This document shows, in pieces, positions 15,073 through 40,117 of a DNA stretch of 64,000 nucleotides. The position numbers and the translations under genes were made by a program. The notes beneath the pieces are model-generated. The model was not told the DNA's origin, ran no database searches, and worked only from the letters and a program-made list of their open reading frames with translations. Positions within the stretch are counted from its first letter, which is position 1, and each line of letters opens with the position of its first letter. The stretch lies in assembly GCA_004299845.1 (NCBI GenBank), contig CP036201.1, positions 3,472,001 to 3,536,000 of the forward strand. The letters are read 5' to 3'. The stretch is from Verrucomicrobia bacterium S94. GTDB lineage: Bacteria; Verrucomicrobiota; Kiritimatiellia; Kiritimatiellales; Pontiellaceae.

Positions 15073-15765
15073 ATGAAGTGGATTAAGCCTCTAATGGGCA
15101 TTATGGCAATTATCGCGATATTGTTTCTGGGCGCAAAATATTCAGGTTTGCAACAATGGTTGGCAGATGCTCTGGCATGGACCGGGGAACTGGGTCCAGT
15201 GGGCATGGGCATTTTCCTGCTGCTCTATATAACAGCCTGTGTCTTCTTTATTCCCGGTTCATTACTGACACTGGGTGCTGGTGCTATTTACGGCCTTGCA
15301 GTGGGATCGGTTTTAGTTTCGGTTTCATCAACACTGGGGGCAACAGCGGCCTTTTTGATCGGGCGCTATTTTGCACGCGACTGGATTGTCAGAAAAATTG
15401 AAGGGAATCGACGGTTCACTGCGATTGATGATGCGGTGGCAGAAGAGGGGTGGCGCATTGTCGGGCTTACCCGGTTGTCGCCGGTGTTTTCGTTCAACTT
15501 GTTGAATTATGCCTATGGCCTAACGCGGGTTTCTTTGCGCGAGTATGTATTGGCCTCCTGGATTGGTATGATGCCCGGAACTGTGATGTATGTGTATATC
15601 GGTTCATTGGCCGGTGATCTTGCAGGCCTTGGTGCGGAAACCGCAGAAGCCCCTTCGGGGGTTCAATGGGCAATCAATCTTGTGGCCTTTCTGGCTACCA
15701 TACTCGTTACGGTTTATGTCACGAAAATTGCGAAAAAGAGTCTGTCGGAGAAAATTGATGCGTGA
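15073..15765 (+). CDS. TVP38/TMEM64 (VTT/DedA-like) membrane protein
   Basis: A 230-residue inner-membrane protein with about five hydrophobic helices. The VTT domain carries the FIPGSLLTLGAGAIYG and GRYFARDW motifs, the GLTRLSPVFSFNLLNYAYGL re-entrant segment and a PGTVMYVYIG segment. Members may act as lipid scramblases or ion-coupled transporters. In clusters like this one it accompanies a MerA-like flavoprotein and arsenosugar glycosyltransferases; export of an arsenolipid or its precursor is possible but unproven. It overlaps the next gene by eight bases. Confidence 0.9.
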   Translation: MKWIKPLMGIMAIIAILFLGAKYSGLQQWLADALAWTGELGPVGMGIFLLLYITACVFFIPGSLLTLGAGAIYGLAVGSVLVSVSSTLGATAAFLIGRYFARDWIVRKIEGNRRFTAIDDAVAEEGWRIVGLTRLSPVFSFNLLNYAYGLTRVSLREYVLASWIGMMPGTVMYVYIGSLAGDLAGLGAETAEAPSGVQWAINLVAFLATILVTVYVTKIAKKSLSEKIDA

Positions 15766-17284
15766 AGAATGGAATATTCAGCCCGAACCAAAGGATCAGT
15801 ATAATAAACGTTTGATTGAAAATGTGCATCCGCTGAACTGGCGGAATCCGGTTCCGGACGGGATCTATAATCTTGTTGTGGTCGGTGCCGGTACAGCTGG
15901 ACTGATTTCGGCCATCGGCACTGCTGGTCTTGGCGGGAAGGTGGCTTTGATTGAGCGGCACCTGATGGGCGGTGATTGCCTTAATATCGGCTGTGTGCCT
16001 TCTAAAGCATTGATTGCACCTTCGCACCTTGCCGCAAAAATGCGTCGGGCTGCGGAGTTTGGTTTGACAGCTTCTGAAGTTTCTGAGGGTGATTTCCCGA
16101 AGGTGATGGAGCGCCTCCGTAAAATTCGCGCTGAGATCAGTGTCAACGATTCTGCGCAGCGCTATTCCGGTAAAGGCGTCGATCTGTTTTTCGGCGAAGG
16201 GAAATTTACCGGGCGCAATACCATTGAGGTCAATGGGCAAACGCTTACCTTCAGGAAAGCGGTCATTGCCACCGGTGCCCGTGCACGGCATCCTGAAATT
16301 GTTGGTTTAGATGACGCTGGATTTTTGACCAACGAAACCGTTTTTAATCTGACAGAACGGCCGGAGCACCTGATCGTAATTGGCGGAGGACCGATTGGCT
16401 GTGAGCTGGCACAGGCCTTTCGTCGTCTGGGATCGCAGGTGACAATCATTGAAAAATCGCGGTTTCTGCCGCGCGAGGATCCCGAGGCATCAGCTATTCT
16501 GGCGGAATCGTTCCGCCGGGATGGTATAGAAGTCCTGCCGGACTCGGAGGTGACCGGCGTTTCACAAGAAGGTGGAAATAAAAGAATACATCTCATCCGG
16601 AACGGAACAGCATCGACGTTGGAAGGAGATCAGATTTTAATCGGAGCTGGACGGGTTCCGAATGTTAAAAATCTTGGGCTGGAAAAAGCCGGTATTGCGT
16701 TTGATGAACGTGTCGGGATAAAAGTAAACGATTATTTACGCACAACCAATCCGCGGGTATTTGCGGCGGGCGACTGCTGTATGTCGTGGAAATTCACCCA
16801 TGCTGCTGATGTTGCTGCACAAATGGTGATTCAGAATGCACTCTTCGGCGGGCGGAAAAAATGGTCCGATGTCAACATGGTCTGGTGCACGTATACCGAT
16901 CCTGAAATTGCTCATGTTGGAATGTACGAACACGAAGCTGAAAAGAAGGGAATTAAAACCGGTTCGTATAAATTCGAAATGGCAGAAAATGATCGTGCGC
17001 AGGCAGAAGGTGAGACGGTCGGGTTTGTGAAGGTCGTCGTAAAAAAAGGAACCGATAAAATTCTGGGAGCGACTATTGTGGCCGCACATGCGGGCGAAAT
17101 GATCAGCGAAATATCGGTTGCGATGGCTGCCGGAATGGGCCTTGGAAAAATTGGCCGCGTTATCCATCCTTATCCGACACAGTCGGAAGCAATCAAGCGG
17201 GTCGCCGGTCTCTACAATCAGACCCGTCTAACCCCGACCCTTACAAAATTGATGCGGGTATGGTTCAGGTTTGCGCGGCGATGA
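15758..17284 (+). CDS. MerA-like FAD/NAD(P)-dependent disulfide oxidoreductase
   Basis: A 508-residue class I pyridine nucleotide-disulfide reductase. It has an FAD-binding VVVGAGTAGL, the redox-active CLNIGC pair followed by VPSK, an NAD(P)-binding VIGGGPIGCE, a second FAD motif VFAAGDC, and the C-terminal dimerisation domain with the catalytic HPYPTQSE. It lacks the N-terminal metal-binding domain and the C-terminal Cys pair of true mercuric reductase, so mercury reduction is unlikely. It probably supplies thiol reduction for the arsenic pathway. The ATG at 15758 is in the 3' end of the previous gene. Confidence 0.88.
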   Translation: MREEWNIQPEPKDQYNKRLIENVHPLNWRNPVPDGIYNLVVVGAGTAGLISAIGTAGLGGKVALIERHLMGGDCLNIGCVPSKALIAPSHLAAKMRRAAEFGLTASEVSEGDFPKVMERLRKIRAEISVNDSAQRYSGKGVDLFFGEGKFTGRNTIEVNGQTLTFRKAVIATGARARHPEIVGLDDAGFLTNETVFNLTERPEHLIVIGGGPIGCELAQAFRRLGSQVTIIEKSRFLPREDPEASAILAESFRRDGIEVLPDSEVTGVSQEGGNKRIHLIRNGTASTLEGDQILIGAGRVPNVKNLGLEKAGIAFDERVGIKVNDYLRTTNPRVFAAGDCCMSWKFTHAADVAAQMVIQNALFGGRKKWSDVNMVWCTYTDPEIAHVGMYEHEAEKKGIKTGSYKFEMAENDRAQAEGETVGFVKVVVKKGTDKILGATIVAAHAGEMISEISVAMAAGMGLGKIGRVIHPYPTQSEAIKRVAGLYNQTRLTPTLTKLMRVWFRFARR

Positions 17285-24099: not shown

Positions 24100-25605
24100 A
24101 TGAAAGATGGATTGAACAGAAAACGGGGAAAAGTGCGGATCAGCGGGGCACTGCTTTCTGTGCTGCTCCATACGGGCATCATCATTTTGCTCGTGAAGGT
24201 ACTGGTTTTCCGGTCGCCGGTTGAAGAGCGGGCGATTGATGTCCGGGTGGTGGAGGAACAGGTTCGGAAGGCGGACCCCCTTGAAAAGGAGAAGCCGGTT
24301 GAAGAGCAGGCGGGCGAGGAGGAATTTCCGGAAGTATCGGAGGAGCCGGCGGAAGTGCTGCCTGAAGATGTATTGGCGGAGGATTCCATGCTGGAATCGG
24401 AGCTGGATCTGAGTGGGCTTGATGCGGTGGCGACTCTGGAAAGTCCGCTGGTGCTGAAAGGATTGATGGTGGGCCGATCGGAAGCGGGGCGGAAAAAAAT
24501 GCTCCGTGAATTCGGGGGAAGATATGGCGGTCAGGTGGAGAAGGCTGTGCTTAAAGGTCTGGACTGGCTGCAGAAAAATCAGCGGGAGGACGGGGCCTGG
24601 GGCGTGGGGAACAGTCGAAGTATGACGGCGAAACAGGAGCGGGCGCGGCTGACCGGTCTGGCGTTGTTGTGCTATCTGGCGCATGGCGAAACGGGGCAGT
24701 CGGAAAGGTACGGGGAAACGGTGCGGCAGGCCATCCGGTATCTGCTCGAACAGCAGGATGAAAAGAGCGGCAGTTTTGTGCCGTTTTCAAAGACGGTGGG
24801 ATCGCACGATGATATCGGGGTTTACGGGCATGCGATTTCCACGTATGCGCTTTGCGAGGCGTATGCCATGACCCGCATGCCGATGTTGAAGGAACCGGTG
24901 GAAAAGGCGGTGCAGCTGATTATCGATGGACAGCAGAAAAAAGGTGGATGGGATCACCGGTATCAGCATGAAAAGTGGAGCGATTTATCGGTCGGAGGCT
25001 GGCAGGTGCAGGCATTGAAGGCGGCGGAGGCCGCCGGGGTTCAGAAAGAAGGGATTGTTCCGGCATTGAAGAAGTCTGTGCCGTTTGTTCAGGGTATGCA
25101 TGCCGGCGAGGGGAAGTTTTATTATCGGTTGGGTAACAAGATGCCGAATGGAGATCTGGATTATATGACGGGTGTGGCAGTGCTCTGTATGCAGCTGGCG
25201 GGCAGCAACGAAGTGGCGGAGGTGAAGGCCGGGCTGGACTATCTGAAAGACGTTGAGTGTACCGACTGGGATGAGGGCTGGGAGAAGACGGGAAAAAACA
25301 AAAGCTTCAATATTGCCTATGAGTGGTACTACAACACGCAGGCAATTTTTCAGAAAGGCGGTTCGAAATGGCAGAGCTGGAACAATAAATTTGCGCCGAT
25401 GCTCATCAAGGCACAGGATGTTTCCGGAGCCTGGAAGCCGCCATCCGAAACGGATGAAGCGTTGACCAAAGATATCATTTACACGACTGAATTCTGCTGT
25501 CTTTCTCTGCAGGTCTACTATCGAATTCTGCCTTCCTTCAAAAAGGCCGCCCGGAATGAGCGGCCTTTTGAATTTGAAGATGATGTTAAGATTGTTGTCT
25601 ATTAA
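24100..25605 (+). CDS. TonB-like protein fused to a squalene-cyclase-type alpha/alpha-toroid domain
   Basis: A 501-residue protein. The N-terminal transmembrane helix (about 14-36) holds Ser20-x3-His24, the S-x3-H pattern by which TonB and TolA couple to ExbB/ExbD. A Glu/Pro-rich linker (40-95) would cross part of the periplasm. Residues 140-480 are prenyltransferase/squalene-oxidase-type repeats with QW-like motifs such as QREDGAWG and QQKKGGWD. No DxDD terpene-cyclase acid motif is evident, so catalysis is doubtful and the toroid may bind a protein or glycan. Co-location with ExbB and two ExbD genes makes it the likely output of the motor. Confidence 0.75.
   Translation: MKDGLNRKRGKVRISGALLSVLLHTGIIILLVKVLVFRSPVEERAIDVRVVEEQVRKADPLEKEKPVEEQAGEEEFPEVSEEPAEVLPEDVLAEDSMLESELDLSGLDAVATLESPLVLKGLMVGRSEAGRKKMLREFGGRYGGQVEKAVLKGLDWLQKNQREDGAWGVGNSRSMTAKQERARLTGLALLCYLAHGETGQSERYGETVRQAIRYLLEQQDEKSGSFVPFSKTVGSHDDIGVYGHAISTYALCEAYAMTRMPMLKEPVEKAVQLIIDGQQKKGGWDHRYQHEKWSDLSVGGWQVQALKAAEAAGVQKEGIVPALKKSVPFVQGMHAGEGKFYYRLGNKMPNGDLDYMTGVAVLCMQLAGSNEVAEVKAGLDYLKDVECTDWDEGWEKTGKNKSFNIAYEWYYNTQAIFQKGGSKWQSWNNKFAPMLIKAQDVSGAWKPPSETDEALTKDIIYTTEFCCLSLQVYYRILPSFKKAARNERPFEFEDDVKIVVY
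25541..25569 (-). terminator. Terminator-like hairpin for the purine permease operon, inside the convergent gene
   Basis: A perfect 10-bp inverted repeat (AAAAGGCCGC with GCGGCCTTTT, 9-base loop) is followed by T residues on the minus strand. It lies 33 bases beyond the permease stop, yet within the last codons of the toroid gene. Confidence 0.7.
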
Positions 25606-26896
25606 TGTGCCATACTGACGAAGAGGTTGATCGCAGAGAGCAGACCGACGACCCACATGACCGGAGAGATTTTTTTTAAGTCGCCGCAACAGACCGTGAT
25701 CAGAATGTAGGAAAGAAATCCAACGGTCAGGCCGGTGGCGATGCTGAACGTGAGCGGCATCAGGATCATAGTCAGGAACGAAGGTACGGCCACCTTGAGG
25801 TCGGAAAAGTCGATTTCCCGGATGTTACGGAACATATAAACGCCGACGATGATCAGGGCCGGAGCGGTTGCAAAAGACGGAACAATCTTGATGAGCGGTG
25901 CCAGGAAGAGGGCCAGCAGAAAAAGGGCTCCGGTGACTACGGAGGCCAGACCGGTGCGCGCGCCGTCACCGATGCCGGACGCGGATTCGATGTAGGTTGT
26001 GGTGGTGGACGTGCCGAGTAGTGAGCCGGCAATGGTGGCTACGGCGTCGGCTTCAAGTACTTTGTCGATTTTCTGAATGGTTCCGTCGGGTTCCACATAA
26101 CCCGCTTCGTAGGAGCAGGCCACGATGGTGCCGATGGAGTCGAACAGGTCGACAAACATGAAGGAGAAAATGGCACCGAGGAGTCCGAATTGCAGAGCGG
26201 CCACGATGTTGAGCTTGAAAGCAATCGGGCAATGCTCGGCGGGGCCGAGACCCATTTTTCAGGCAGGCTGACCTCACCGAACAGGGCGCCGACAATGGTT
26301 GCAAAAATGATGCCGATCAGAATGCCGCCTTTGATTTTGCGGGCTTCAAGTACGGTGATCAGCAGCAGGGCGGCCAGACCGATCAGCACCGGTTTGGTCA
26401 GCGGTCCGATGGAAACCAGCGTGGCCGGGTTGTCGACAATCAGCCCGAGGTTTTTCATGCCGATGAAAGTAATGAACAGGCCGATGCCGGCGGCGGTGGC
26501 AATCCGCAATCCGACCGGAATGGCGGTGACCACTTTTTCTCGGATGCCGACTACGGTCAGGACCAAAAAGGCGATACCGGAAATAAAGACCACGCCCAGC
26601 GCAGTCTGCCAGTCGAGGCCCTGACCCATCACCAGCGTGTAGGTGAAAAAAGCGTTAAGTCCCATGCCCGGGGCCATGGCAAACGGAACGTTTGCCCAGA
26701 GGCCGACGAGAAAGGTGCCGAGCGCCGCCGCCAGGCAGGTGACGGTGATCAGGGCGGGTTTATCCATGCCGGCTGCACTCAGAATCATAGGATTCACGAA
26801 GATGATATAGGCCATGGTCAGGAAGGTGGTTAACCCTCCGATGATTTCGGTTTTTGTATCGGTACCGTGTTCTTTGAGTTTGAAAAAGCCGGTCAT
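25602..26896 (-). CDS. NCS2/AzgA-family purine permease, frame interrupted by a one-base deletion
   Basis: A xanthine/uracil-type permease for guanine, hypoxanthine or adenine, with 12-14 membrane helices. AzgA-family motifs are present: MAYIIFVNP near the start, MAPGMGLNAFFTYT, VDLFDSIGT and the GTSTTTTYIESASGI loop. The frame changes at the G-run 26227-26229; one added base gives 432 codons (431 residues), the normal length, and joins PPSIA to PIAFKLN. GGGAG upstream supports the ATG at 26896. The Tsx-like porin gene lies 20 bases upstream, so the two form an uptake operon. A sequence error is more likely than a true pseudogene. Confidence 0.9.
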
Positions 26897-28023: not shown

Positions 28024-31000
28024 TCAGACTTTTTCCACCACAGCCGCACCAAAGGTGAAACCGCCGCCGAAGGCGGTCGCACCGATCTTGGCTCCTTTTT
28101 CAAGGGTCGGAACCAGTTCGCAGAGGGCAATCGGAATTGTGTTCGAAGAGGTGTTTCCATATTTGCGGATATGGTTGAACATTTTTTCCGGCGGGAATTT
28201 GATGGTTTTCCGAATGGCTTCGATAATGCGTTCGTTGGCCTGATGCGGCACCACCTTGTCGAGGGCCTCCAGCGGAATGCCACGTTCCTGACAGGCACTG
28301 TCGAGCACATCGATCATTTTACGGACCGCCAGCTTGAAGACGGTGAGCCCTTCCATTTCAATGACTTCGCCGCTGCCCATGTTCGGAACATAAAGCACTT
28401 TCTGATCGACACCGGTAGCGGAGAGGAACGGACGGTTCAGTTTTACTTCAATATTGCCCGGTCGGCGTTCGCAGCTCACCAGCGAAGCTGTCGCGGCATC
28501 GCCGAACAGGGCCATGGTTTTCTGATCATCCATGTTGACCATCGGCGAAAGCGTTTCGGCGGTGATGACGATCACCTTTTTATCCGGCGCATTGGTCAGG
28601 AAATCGAAGGCTGACTGCAGGGCATACATATAGCCCGAGCAGGCGGCATTCACATCGTGCGCCTGCATCAGCACTTCGCCTTTAGCCGGGCTGAGTGCAT
28701 GCAGCACCTGACAGGCCAGTGAAGGTGTCATGGTTTTCGGGGTTCCGGTGGAGCAGATAATGGCTCCGATATCAGAAATCGTGAGGTTTTCCTTTTCCAG
28801 CAGCTGGCGGGTGGCATTCACCGCTAGGCTGAGCACATCTTCGTCGCCGTCGATCCAGTAGCGTTCTTCAATGCCGGTCCGTTTCCGAATGGCATCGGAA
28901 TCCCATTCGTGGCGGCCCTGCAGCAGTTCCTCGTTGGTAATATGGCGGGAACCGAATACTTTGGTGATGTTGGAAATATAGATCGGTTTCTGTTCAATGG
29001 CCGGGGCTATGGGGGCGACCTTAGGCCCGCCCGAACTGCGCCTCCGCTCCATAACCGGTGTGCCGGGATCTTCTTTCGTGATCGGTTTGAGCTGGGCGGC
29101 TTCATCCGACGCGATGCGCAGCATCGGCGTTCCAACCGTCAGGGTATCTCCTTCTTCAACCAGCACTTCTGATATTTTTCCGGAAACCGGTGCAGAGATA
29201 TCCATGGAGGCTTTATCGGCTTCGACGGAGGCAATCAGGTCGCCTTCTTTGATTTCCTCTCCTTCAGCGACCAGCAGGTCGGCGACGGTGATGGTTTCAT
29301 CAGAGGGGCTTGACCCGATGGCTTTAACGGTGATGATGCCGGCTTCGTCTTCAACGGGTTTATTCCAGTGAATATCGATGTCGAGCATCTCGCAGCATTT
29401 TTCGAGCGTACGTTTGAATGACGGCAGTACCTCGATCTGGCAGGAGAAATCGTAGGGAATATAGGTGTCCGGACGGGTGATGCGGGCCACCTGTACTTCG
29501 GCACCGGCTTTTTCCGCAATTTCGGCGGCGACTTCCGCGCCCATGCCCGAGGTTTTATTGTCTTCGTGGACGACAACAAGTTTTCCGGTCTTTCGGGCCG
29601 AAGAGAGCACGGTTTCTTCATCCCACGGGAAGATGGTGCGCAAATCGATCACTTCGGCATTGATTCCGACTTCCTTCAGAGCTTCGGCGGTGCGTTCAAC
29701 CACCGGCATGGAGCCGCCCCAGCTGACGAGCGTGATATCCTGGCCAACGCGGGTAACGCGGGCCTTTCCAATCGGGACATAGTGTTTATCGATGTCGGCC
29801 GAGGTGGTATTGGAGCGGTCGTTGATCAGGCTTTTCGGGAAGAGAAAAACCGACGGCCGGCCGGATTCGGCTATGGCATTCAGCAACCCGGCGGCATCCG
29901 CGGCGGTGGACGGCATAAAGACGTCAACACCGGGAATATGTGCACAGATCGATTCCATGGTCTGGGCATGATACGGCCCGAGCCCTGGCCGGTAGCCGCC
30001 GGAAATGGACATGATCAGAACCGGAGCTTCCCATTGACCATTAGTACGCCAGTACATGGCTCCGATTTCAGAAAGAATGTGGTTATACGCCACCGGCATA
30101 AAGTCGGCAAACTGCATGAAGGCCACCGGTTTTCCGCCGGCGAGGGCCTGACCGGTGGAGACACCGAGAATGGTGTTTTCCGCCAGTGCTGCGTTGCTGA
30201 CCTGTTCCGGGAATGTCCGGGAAAGACCCCGGGTCAAGCCGAAAACATCGCCTTTGGGGTCTTCGATATCCTGACCGAGCAGGGTGGTTTTCCGATCGTT
30301 GGAAAGCCGGTGTTTCAGCGCCTCGCGCATGGCTTCGAGCATGCTGAGTGTTCGGTTGTCTTCGGTTCCACGATATTCCTGTCGCGGTTCCGGAAGCGGT
30401 TTTTTGGCAGTAAGATCGGCTTTCGGTGCCGTTCCGCCGCGTGCCGTCTGGAAGGCGGCATCCACCTGGATTTTTACATCATCTTCGATGGCTTTGATGG
30501 CAGCGGCATCGATGCCGTTGGCCAGCAGGTAATCGCGGAGCTTGGCGCAGGGGTCGGCATTTTCCAGCGCAGCTTTCAGTTCGGCCTCGGTACGGTAAAC
30601 GGACTGGTCGTCGGCATTGGTGTGGCTTTCGAGGCGCTCAACATTCATGACGACGATCCGGGGTTCGCGGGTTTCCCGGATTTCGGAAACCGCTTGGCCG
30701 AATGTGTTGAAGGTGGCAATCGTGTCGGAGCCGTCGACCCGCTGGATCGGAAGGCCGAGGAAGGAATCGGCTTCGCCGTCCGGCAGAGAATAAAACGTGT
30801 TTCCTTTGGTCGGTGTGGAGAGGGCAAAGCGGTTGTCTTCAATCAGGAAGAGGACCGGCAGATTGGCGCGAACGGCTTCGGCCACGGCTTCATAGAAATC
30901 GCCCTGCTGGGTGGCGCCGTCGCCGACGGAAACCACCACGAAGGGATTGTCCGGCTCATTTTTAAGCATTGTTGCTGCGCCCACGGCCTGGAGCACATTG

Positions 31001-31356
31001 CTGCCGACGAGGGTCGGGGTGCTCATAATGTTGAGGGTCGGATCACACGGGAAGGCGGGCATACGGCGTCCGGCAGAGTTGGATTCCTCTTTCGAGAAGA
31101 GGCCGTAAAAGACGGTTTCGTAGGAAACTCCCCGGGCGTAGGCCAGTGCACGATCACGGTAATGGAGATGCAGCCAGTCGCTTTCGATCATATGCGGTGC
31201 CAGCGCGGCGGCGGCCTCGTGACCGGAGGAGGGGATGTAAAAAAAGACTTCGCCCCGCTGAGCCGCGGCGGATTGAAGCTGGTCCGTGTAGCGCGAGGCC
31301 ACCATCGGGCGATAAAGTTCGAGCAGTTGTTCGACTGAAGGTGTGTTCATTTTCAT
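28024..31356 (-). CDS. Four-domain fusion: 2-oxo acid dehydrogenase E1-alpha, E1-beta, lipoyl domain, ketoacyl-ACP synthase III
   Basis: An 1110-residue protein. E1-alpha (about 10-300) has the thiamine diphosphate motif GDGATQQGDF (145-154) and Asn175. E1-beta (about 335-660) has the PEQVSNAALAE segment with its catalytic Glu. A lipoyl domain (about 680-750) carries Lys715 in EADKASM. A FabH-like domain (about 790-1110) has RKRTGIEER, catalytic Cys906 in NAACSGYMYAL, His1038 in PHQAN and Asn1068 in GNTSSNT. Known complexes pass the acyl group from E1 to lipoyl-E2, then to CoA; no E2 acyltransferase domain is present here. The fusion may therefore decarboxylate a branched-chain 2-oxo acid and hand the acyl group to the synthase to start fatty acid synthesis, directly or through CoA. 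It stands alone and is divergent from ptsP. Confidence 0.92.
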   Translation of the reverse strand: MKMNTPSVEQLLELYRPMVASRYTDQLQSAAAQRGEVFFYIPSSGHEAAAALAPHMIESDWLHLHYRDRALAYARGVSYETVFYGLFSKEESNSAGRRMPAFPCDPTLNIMSTPTLVGSNVLQAVGAATMLKNEPDNPFVVVSVGDGATQQGDFYEAVAEAVRANLPVLFLIEDNRFALSTPTKGNTFYSLPDGEADSFLGLPIQRVDGSDTIATFNTFGQAVSEIRETREPRIVVMNVERLESHTNADDQSVYRTEAELKAALENADPCAKLRDYLLANGIDAAAIKAIEDDVKIQVDAAFQTARGGTAPKADLTAKKPLPEPRQEYRGTEDNRTLSMLEAMREALKHRLSNDRKTTLLGQDIEDPKGDVFGLTRGLSRTFPEQVSNAALAENTILGVSTGQALAGGKPVAFMQFADFMPVAYNHILSEIGAMYWRTNGQWEAPVLIMSISGGYRPGLGPYHAQTMESICAHIPGVDVFMPSTAADAAGLLNAIAESGRPSVFLFPKSLINDRSNTTSADIDKHYVPIGKARVTRVGQDITLVSWGGSMPVVERTAEALKEVGINAEVIDLRTIFPWDEETVLSSARKTGKLVVVHEDNKTSGMGAEVAAEIAEKAGAEVQVARITRPDTYIPYDFSCQIEVLPSFKRTLEKCCEMLDIDIHWNKPVEDEAGIITVKAIGSSPSDETITVADLLVAEGEEIKEGDLIASVEADKASMDISAPVSGKISEVLVEEGDTLTVGTPMLRIASDEAAQLKPITKEDPGTPVMERRRSSGGPKVAPIAPAIEQKPIYISNITKVFGSRHITNEELLQGRHEWDSDAIRKRTGIEERYWIDGDEDVLSLAVNATRQLLEKENLTISDIGAIICSTGTPKTMTPSLACQVLHALSPAKGEVLMQAHDVNAACSGYMYALQSAFDFLTNAPDKKVIVITAETLSPMVNMDDQKTMALFGDAATASLVSCERRPGNIEVKLNRPFLSATGVDQKVLYVPNMGSGEVIEMEGLTVFKLAVRKMIDVLDSACQERGIPLEALDKVVPHQANERIIEAIRKTIKFPPEKMFNHIRKYGNTSSNTIPIALCELVPTLEKGAKIGATAFGGGFTFGAAVVEKV

Positions 31357-38644: not shown

Positions 38645-40117
38645 ATGGGTCAGAATTATTTCAACTCGCTTACGATGAAGCAGAAACTCGCGGAAATCGG
38701 TACCTGCCGGTTTATGGATGCGTCGGAATTTGCCAACGGTATTGAAGCCGCTAAAGGCAAGAAAATCGTTATCGTCGGTTGCGGAGCTCAGGGGCTCAAT
38801 CAGGGGCTGAACATGCGCGACAGTGGACTTGATGTATCCTATACGCTCCGCGCTTCGGCCATTGAAGAGAAGCGTCAGTCTTATCTGAACGCCACCGAAA
38901 ACGGTTTCAAAGTAGGAACCTATGAAGAAATGCTTCCGACGGCAGACATCGTGATGAACCTTGCGCCCGATAAACAGCACACCAATGTTTGCGAAACGGT
39001 TATTCCGCTGATGAAGAAAGGGGCCACATTCTGCTATGCCCATGGGTTCAACATTGTGGAAGAAGGTATGCAGATCCGCAAAGACCTGACGGTGATCATG
39101 GTGGCTCCGAAATCTCCGGGTTCCGAAGTGCGCGAAGAGTACAAACGCGGATTCGGTGTTCCGACGCTGATTGCCTGCCATGTGGCCAACGACCCGAACG
39201 GGGATGGCATAGAAACGGCGAAAGCACTTGCGGTTGCACAGGGCGGTCATCATGCCGGTGTACTGGAATCCAACTTTGTGGCGGAAGTAAAATCCGACCT
39301 TATGGGTGAGCAGACTATCCTCTGCGGGTTGCTGCAGGCCGGCTCGCTGCTCTGTTTTGACAAAATGGTCGAAAAAGGCATCGATCCCGGTTATGCCTCC
39401 AAGCTTATTCAGTATGGCTGGGAAACCATCACCGAAGGTTTGAAACAGGGCGGTATCACCAACATGATGGATCGCCTCTCCAATCCGGCTAAACTGAAGG
39501 CATTCGAACTGGCCGAGGATCTGAAGCTGATCATGCGTCCGTTGTTTGAAAAACATATGGACGATATCATCACCGGCGAGTTTTCCAAAACCATGATGGA
39601 AGACTGGGCAAACGATGACGAAAAGCTGCTGACCTGGCGTGCTGAAACTGCGGAAACGGCCTTTGAAAAGACTCCGGCCGCTGATGTTGAAATCACTGAA
39701 CAGGAATACTACGACAAGGGTATTCTGATGGTGGCGATGGTGAAGGCCGGTGTTGAGCTTGCTTTCGAAGAAATGGTGGATGTCGGTATCAAACCCGAAT
39801 CCGCCTATTATGAATCGCTGCATGAAACCCCGCTTATCGCCAATACCATTGCACGTAAAAAACTGTTCGAAATGAACCGTGTGATTTCCGATACGGCGGA
39901 ATACGGCTGCTATCTGTTCTCTCACGCCTGTGTGCCGCTGCTGCAGGATTTCATGAAGGGCATTGATACCGATGTCATCGGTAAAGGACTTGAGCTGAAA
40001 GATAACGGAGTCGATAACAAGACTCTGGTTGCGGTTAATGCCGAGATCCGTTATCACGAAGTGGAAATTGTCGGAGAAGAGCTGCGTGCCGCCATGAGCA
40101 ATATGAAACCGCTCTAG
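38645..40117 (+). CDS. ilvC: Ketol-acid reductoisomerase, long class II form
   Basis: Catalyses the NADPH-dependent isomerisation and reduction of acetolactate in isoleucine and valine synthesis. At 490 residues it is the long E. coli-type enzyme with a duplicated knotted domain; most bacteria have about 335 residues. It has the Rossmann loop [17 protein letters not shown] and [13 protein letters not shown], and the metal-binding segment [17 protein letters not shown] lies before the ATG at 38645. No other ilv genes are adjacent. Confidence 0.97.

Follow-up and report, generated by a model that had tools for sequence, protein, structure and literature searches.

A four-domain fusion protein conserved in Kiritimatiellales probably primes branched-chain fatty acids without going through acyl-CoA

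Introduction

In its textbook form, bacterial branched-chain fatty acid synthesis requires E1, E2, E3, free acyl-CoA and FabH. In the 64,000-nucleotide stretch of DNA from Verrucomicrobia bacterium S94 analysed here (the window), which is part of a 4.1-Mb genome consisting of a single contig, one minus-strand open reading frame (31356→28024; 1110 aa) encodes E1α, E1β, lipoyl and KAS III domains together. This arrangement raises the question of what becomes of the acyl group on the lipoyl arm. A sequence-only reading of the locus had suggested that the arm passes it straight to the KAS III cysteine or, alternatively, that a separate E2 uses the arm. Here, we address this question by analysing the domains of the protein, its relatives, its CoA site and the other enzymes of the genome.

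Results

Domain organisation of the fusion protein

The fusion gene (28024..31356, minus strand) is a single stop-free frame of 1110 codons in which Pfam and NCBIfam models identify all four domains, as originally read, the strand being the only addition. The E1alpha-like TPP-binding domain (aa 16-307; 30436..31311, minus strand) matches E1_dh (PF00676, 1.8e-43) and carries the GDG..N thiamine motif at aa 145-175. The E1beta-like domains (29449..30348, minus strand) comprise Transket_pyr (PF02779, aa 337-511, 1.4e-22) and Transketolase_C (PF02780, aa 530-636, 6.7e-31) with the catalytic residues Glu393 and His463. Together, E1_dh, Transket_pyr, Transketolase_C, the TPP motif and the catalytic Glu/His meet the criteria for an alpha2beta2-type E1. 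These domains are followed by a lipoyl domain (aa 690-748; 29113..29289, minus strand; PF00364 Biotin_lipoyl, 1.5e-17), in which the modifiable lysine of the DKA motif is present as Lys715 in EADKA; lipoylation itself is inferred. The KAS III domain (aa 793-1108; 28030..28980, minus strand) scores above the cut-off of the NCBIfam KAS 3 model NF006829 (271 vs 249 bits), matches ACP_syn_III (aa 901-967, 2.2e-18) and ACP_syn_III_C (aa 1022-1108, 9.8e-26), and has the KAS III fold with its Cys-His-Asn triad (Cys906, His1038 and Asn1068). The thiamine motif, the lipoyl-lysine and the triad all lie at the positions first assigned to them.

Using Pfam, no match to 2-oxoacid_dh (E2 catalytic, PF00198), E3_binding (PF02817) or Pyr_redox was detected in the fusion protein, in agreement with the initial observation that the polypeptide contains neither an E2 acyltransferase nor an E3 domain; by contrast, PF02817 was detected in AceF.

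The lipoyl and KAS III domains are connected by a flexible linker (about aa 753-793; 28981..29101, minus strand). In an AlphaFold model of the fusion (mean pLDDT 81.7, pTM 0.66), the domains are confident while the linkers are of low confidence, with pLDDT <50 at residues 756-762 and 773-788; therefore, the Lys715-Cys906 distance in the monomer was not used. Across the fusion family, the lipoyl-KAS linker varies from 36 to 52 residues, and a segment that is variable in length and predicted to be disordered would be as a swinging arm needs.

Distribution and descent of the fusion

The fusion is deeply conserved as one polypeptide. Each of the 22 near-complete genomes of the order has it at full length, as do 41 of the 43 genomes overall, the two without a match being only 72% and 84% complete. 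Within the class, 60/346 genomes have it, and it was also detected in three families that belong to the phylum but not to this class (f48, f41 and f37). Named relatives at about 85% identity belong to Pontiellaceae, Kiritimatiellota; whole-length matches have 44-92% identity and an intact frame, and partial matches stem from fragmented contigs. Cys906, His1038, Asn1068, Lys715, Glu393 and His463 are invariant in 37/37 full-length members, and so are the residues of the thiamine motif except Asp146, which is Glu in one of them. Because the intact frame and the four-domain order recur in dozens of independently assembled genomes, the fusion is the result of neither chance nor mis-assembly, and a chimera or frameshift artefact, which would have refuted the sequence-only reading, was rejected. 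In two loci, L018 (genome G081) and L021 (genome G007), a long open frame extends upstream of the fusion match, giving 1521 and 1339 codons in all; its coding status is not established.

In a quick tree of KAS domains, a fully supported branch separates the fusions from free FabHs. Similarly, the fusion E1 halves form one clade in a quick E1 tree, in which the only unfused rows (L004 and L054) are both contig-end truncations; the clade is fused throughout, and homologues encoded by separate genes, which would also have counted against the initial proposal, did not appear in it. Both trees broadly track family relationships, consistent with a fusion that arose once and was inherited mostly vertically. 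A contig from a Thiotrichales MAG encodes the first three domains and ends just inside KAS III; this copy hints at some horizontal transfer. The contig scan returned close relatives only, and the distribution beyond the phylum is poorly sampled. In a plasmid collection, no record covered 80% of the fusion protein.

The fusion gene is a stand-alone, single-copy gene. The genes around it are conserved only among close relatives, supporting that the fusion acts as a stand-alone unit, and an operon-based function was rejected for the same reason. Here, the flanking genes encode a Tsx-like channel, an NCS2 permease and a GAF-type PEP-utilising protein; none of those examined encodes a PKS or NRPS. 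The NCS2-type (xanthine/uracil) permease (25602-26896, minus strand) is present as two overlapping frames of 217 and 285 aa, while in relatives it is one frame of about 435 aa; the split is a frameshift or sequencing error.

The CoA site of the KAS III domain

In FabH, the adenine of CoA forms a hydrogen bond with Thr28 and is sandwiched by Trp32 and Arg151, and the pantetheine is gripped by Arg36 and two asparagines, as derived from Yersinia FabH superposed on E. coli FabH-CoA (PMC4606726). We compared 48 fusion KAS domains with 32 free FabHs (31 from the same class and E. coli FabH). The adenine contacts Thr28, Trp32 and Arg151 were present in 32/32 free FabHs and in 0/48 fusions. In the S94 protein, Ala822, Gln945 and Thr877 stand for Trp32, Arg151 and Phe87 of E. 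coli FabH. The free FabHs share 53 invariant columns, of which 12 have been lost throughout the 48 fusions, and these 12 include all three adenine contacts, which would occur by chance with p of about 0.01 (hypergeometric, C(12,3)/C(53,3)). Cys112, His244, Asn274, Asn247, Gly209 and Arg249 (FabH numbering) are retained in every fusion and Arg36 in 44/48; most of the pantetheine tunnel is kept, as is the ACP-facing Arg249, which corresponds to Arg1043 of the fusion.

Two further substitutions were observed. A Trp occupies the Thr28 position, one helical turn upstream of Trp32, in 41/48 fusions, the most divergent, deepest-branching ones being without it, and might partly substitute for Trp32. 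Moreover, the acyl-pocket residue Phe87 is replaced by Thr in 48/48 fusions, a change that we infer suits a larger acyl group. As far as aligned residues can tell, the loss of the three adenine contacts in all fusions argues against CoA dependence. With the adenine-gripping residues lost, branched fatty acids are probably primed without the usual acyl-CoA intermediate.

Other enzymes of the genome and fatty acids of relatives

What is said below about the whole genome is based on family searches. The genome contains one E2 catalytic domain, that of AceF; this protein combines an E3-binding domain with two lipoyl domains and is encoded directly downstream of an AceE-type E1. No dedicated E2 partner for the fusion was found in the genome, the only PF00198 copy being AceF. 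Thus, an E2 gene does exist elsewhere in the genome, and the idea that a separate E2 uses the arm is weakened because this only E2 adjoins AceE. In 25 fusion-bearing genomes, one to three E2 copies were found per genome.

The searches revealed no other αβ-type E1; the one other Transket_pyr protein is inferred from its 679-aa frame to be DXS. Since the only E2 is AceF with AceE and there is no other αβ-type E1, the genome encodes no conventional branched-chain dehydrogenase complex besides the fusion. It encodes one other KAS III, a normal FabH with an intact CoA site, as well as a free lipoamide dehydrogenase (E3) that scores above the curated cut-off. Ferredoxin-type 2-oxoacid oxidoreductases are also present and cannot be excluded as an alternative source of acyl-CoA. 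A pyridine nucleotide-disulphide oxidoreductase of 564 aa (15590-17284, plus strand) is a second E3-like candidate for re-oxidising the lipoyl arm, although its 388.6 bits do not reach the cut-off for lipoamide dehydrogenase (408.8 bits).

Even-numbered iso chains derive from an isobutyryl starter, i.e. from 2-oxoisovalerate. C18:0 and iso-even acids (ranging from i-C12 to i-C18) are the major fatty acids of cultured Pontiella and Tichowtungia strains, those of Pontiella being C18:0 together with i-C12, i-C14, i-C16, i-C18 and i-C20:0, and Kiritimatiella glycovorans likewise produces i-C14:0 (PMC10880615). Because cultured relatives make the iso-even series, an isobutyryl starter is implied; this match rests on the relatives, the profile of the sequenced strain itself being unreported. 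The window also encodes a ketol-acid reductoisomerase (38645-40117, plus strand), an enzyme on the pathway to 2-oxoisovalerate, the proposed substrate of the fusion; its gene and the fusion gene are about 7 kb apart and do not share an operon.

Proposed reaction and alternatives

We propose, with a probability of roughly 0.6, that the fusion is a dedicated, self-contained initiator of branched-chain fatty acid synthesis that carries isobutyryl via TPP and the lipoyl group straight to the KAS III cysteine, without free acyl-CoA. On thiamine diphosphate bound by the E1alpha and E1beta halves, a branched 2-oxo acid (most likely 2-oxoisovalerate) would be decarboxylated, and the acyl group would be moved reductively onto lipoamide at Lys715. 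The lipoyl arm would then swing on the disordered linker to KAS III and deliver isobutyryl directly to Cys906, replacing the E2-to-CoA step, and KAS III would condense it with malonyl-ACP to 4-methyl-3-oxopentanoyl-ACP, the first iso-even intermediate. Finally, the free dihydrolipoamide dehydrogenase of the genome would re-oxidise the arm; as no E3-binding domain was detected in the fusion, this step must work without docking. There is no biochemistry behind this reaction: the activity is inferred, and so are the identity of the substrate, the direct transfer and the re-oxidation by a stand-alone E3. Slightly more firmly, we hold that one polypeptide starts fatty acid synthesis independently of CoA, from thiamine to lipoamide to the ketosynthase Cys to malonyl-ACP, with KAS III taking the acceptor role of E2 and CoA.

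The same fusion with the same direct transfer could use pyruvate or a range of 2-oxo acids, in which case acetyl-lipoyl would prime straight chains and bypass PDH and acetyl-CoA. No sequence test of specificity is decisive here: the NCBIfam matches of the E1 part are pyruvate dehydrogenase E1 models, all below cut-off, and pyruvate remains possible. However, the Thermus branched-chain E1 is the nearest or nearly nearest likeness for both E1alpha and E1beta, the best fold match of the E1beta part being 1um9_B, the Thermus branched-chain 2-oxo acid E1 beta chain. It is also the structure closest to the E1alpha part, which is not decisive for the substrate and suggestive only. Moreover, the genome already encodes AceE/AceF as well as a free FabH whose CoA site is normal, iso-even fatty acids require an isobutyryl starter yet no other alpha-beta-type E1 was found, and the Thr in place of Phe87 is common to all fusions. 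We consider priming from pyruvate unlikely.

It is less likely still that the fusion merely channels, i.e. that AceF serves its lipoyl arm and makes isobutyryl-CoA, which the fused KAS III then uses normally. This option was raised in the sequence-only reading; the genome does encode an E2, and acyl-CoA is the substrate of free FabHs. Nevertheless, the sole E2 is paired with AceE, one to three E2s are encoded by other genomes that carry the fusion, none of the 48 fusion KAS domains has any of the CoA adenine contacts, and fusing KAS to the arm would be unnecessary.

We give little credence to a product other than a membrane fatty acid, in which case the 2-oxo acid would supply the starter unit of a specialised lipid or polyketide. 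Secondary metabolism does have many KAS III enzymes whose donors are altered, and E1-lipoyl-E2-ACP loading modules occur in a Streptomyces PKS/NRPS plasmid cluster (see below); on the other hand, the fusion gene is stand-alone and single-copy, its neighbours are not conserved, those examined include no PKS or NRPS, and it is universal in the order, as primary metabolism would predict. Finally, an assembly artefact or a decayed fusion without joint function can be dismissed, given the intact frame and conserved catalytic residues in dozens of genomes and no evidence found in its support.

Discussion

The proposed reaction resembles the iso/anteiso route of Bacillus and Staphylococcus, in which a branched-chain 2-oxo acid dehydrogenase complex and FabH carry out the same chemistry up to acyl-lipoyl and the same KAS III condensation. 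In that route, however, E1, E2, E3 and FabH are separate and the intermediate is free acyl-CoA, whereas the fusion has E1, lipoyl and KAS III in one chain, no E2 acyltransferase and no CoA adenine contacts.

Fusions of the type E1alpha-E1beta-lipoyl-E2 occur in several other Verrucomicrobiota families (L028, L029-L037), with open frames of about 1020-1550 aa, three of them Pfam-confirmed. L028, L030 and L037 share the first three domains with the fusion described here, with about 35% identity over the E1 part, but have a terminal 2-oxoacid_dh acyltransferase where this fusion has KAS III. This suggests that KAS III stands in the place of the acyltransferase, taking the acyl group from the arm.

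On the Streptomyces plasmid NZ_CP109590, an E1 and a lipoyl arm feed an acyl carrier route beside a ketosynthase, apparently loading a starter derived from a 2-oxo acid; unlike the fusion, this system has a separate E1 gene, an E2 acyltransferase domain, an ACP and a PKS-type ketosynthase. There, a fused E1alpha-beta gene is followed by a gene for a protein that starts with lipoyl-E2-ACP-KS (L116:7941-18518), which is a probable 2-oxo-acid starter loading module; the module adjoins pabB, chorismate mutase and other aromatic amino acid genes. NapB/NapD of the naphthyridinomycin pathway and their relatives DinS/DinU are two-component transketolases with an ACP and a KAS III encoded nearby and, like the route proposed for the fusion, transfer a TPP-bound C2 unit to ACP without free CoA (PMC7570522). 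They differ from the fusion in that the hydroxyethyl unit comes from a ketose phosphate, in belonging to secondary metabolism and in being separate proteins. The Streptomyces plasmid cluster and NapB/NapD are the closest known cases in which units derived from TPP are passed to a carrier protein.

In the open-access literature, which leaves most subscription journals outside the scope, we found no description of the four-domain architecture or of direct lipoyl-to-KAS III transfer. The domains are all known; as far as can be told, what is new is that they are combined, that the CoA site has been lost and that priming without CoA is implied. With the fusion, direct acyl transfer from lipoamide to a ketosynthase could be tested with one gene in one tube, and the engineering of branched lipids would gain a compact starter module. 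If the proposal is true, the first half of the branched-chain pathway has been collapsed into one enzyme and the acyl-CoA pool removed, which would explain the unusual iso-even membrane lipids across an order of marine bacteria without a branched-chain E2.
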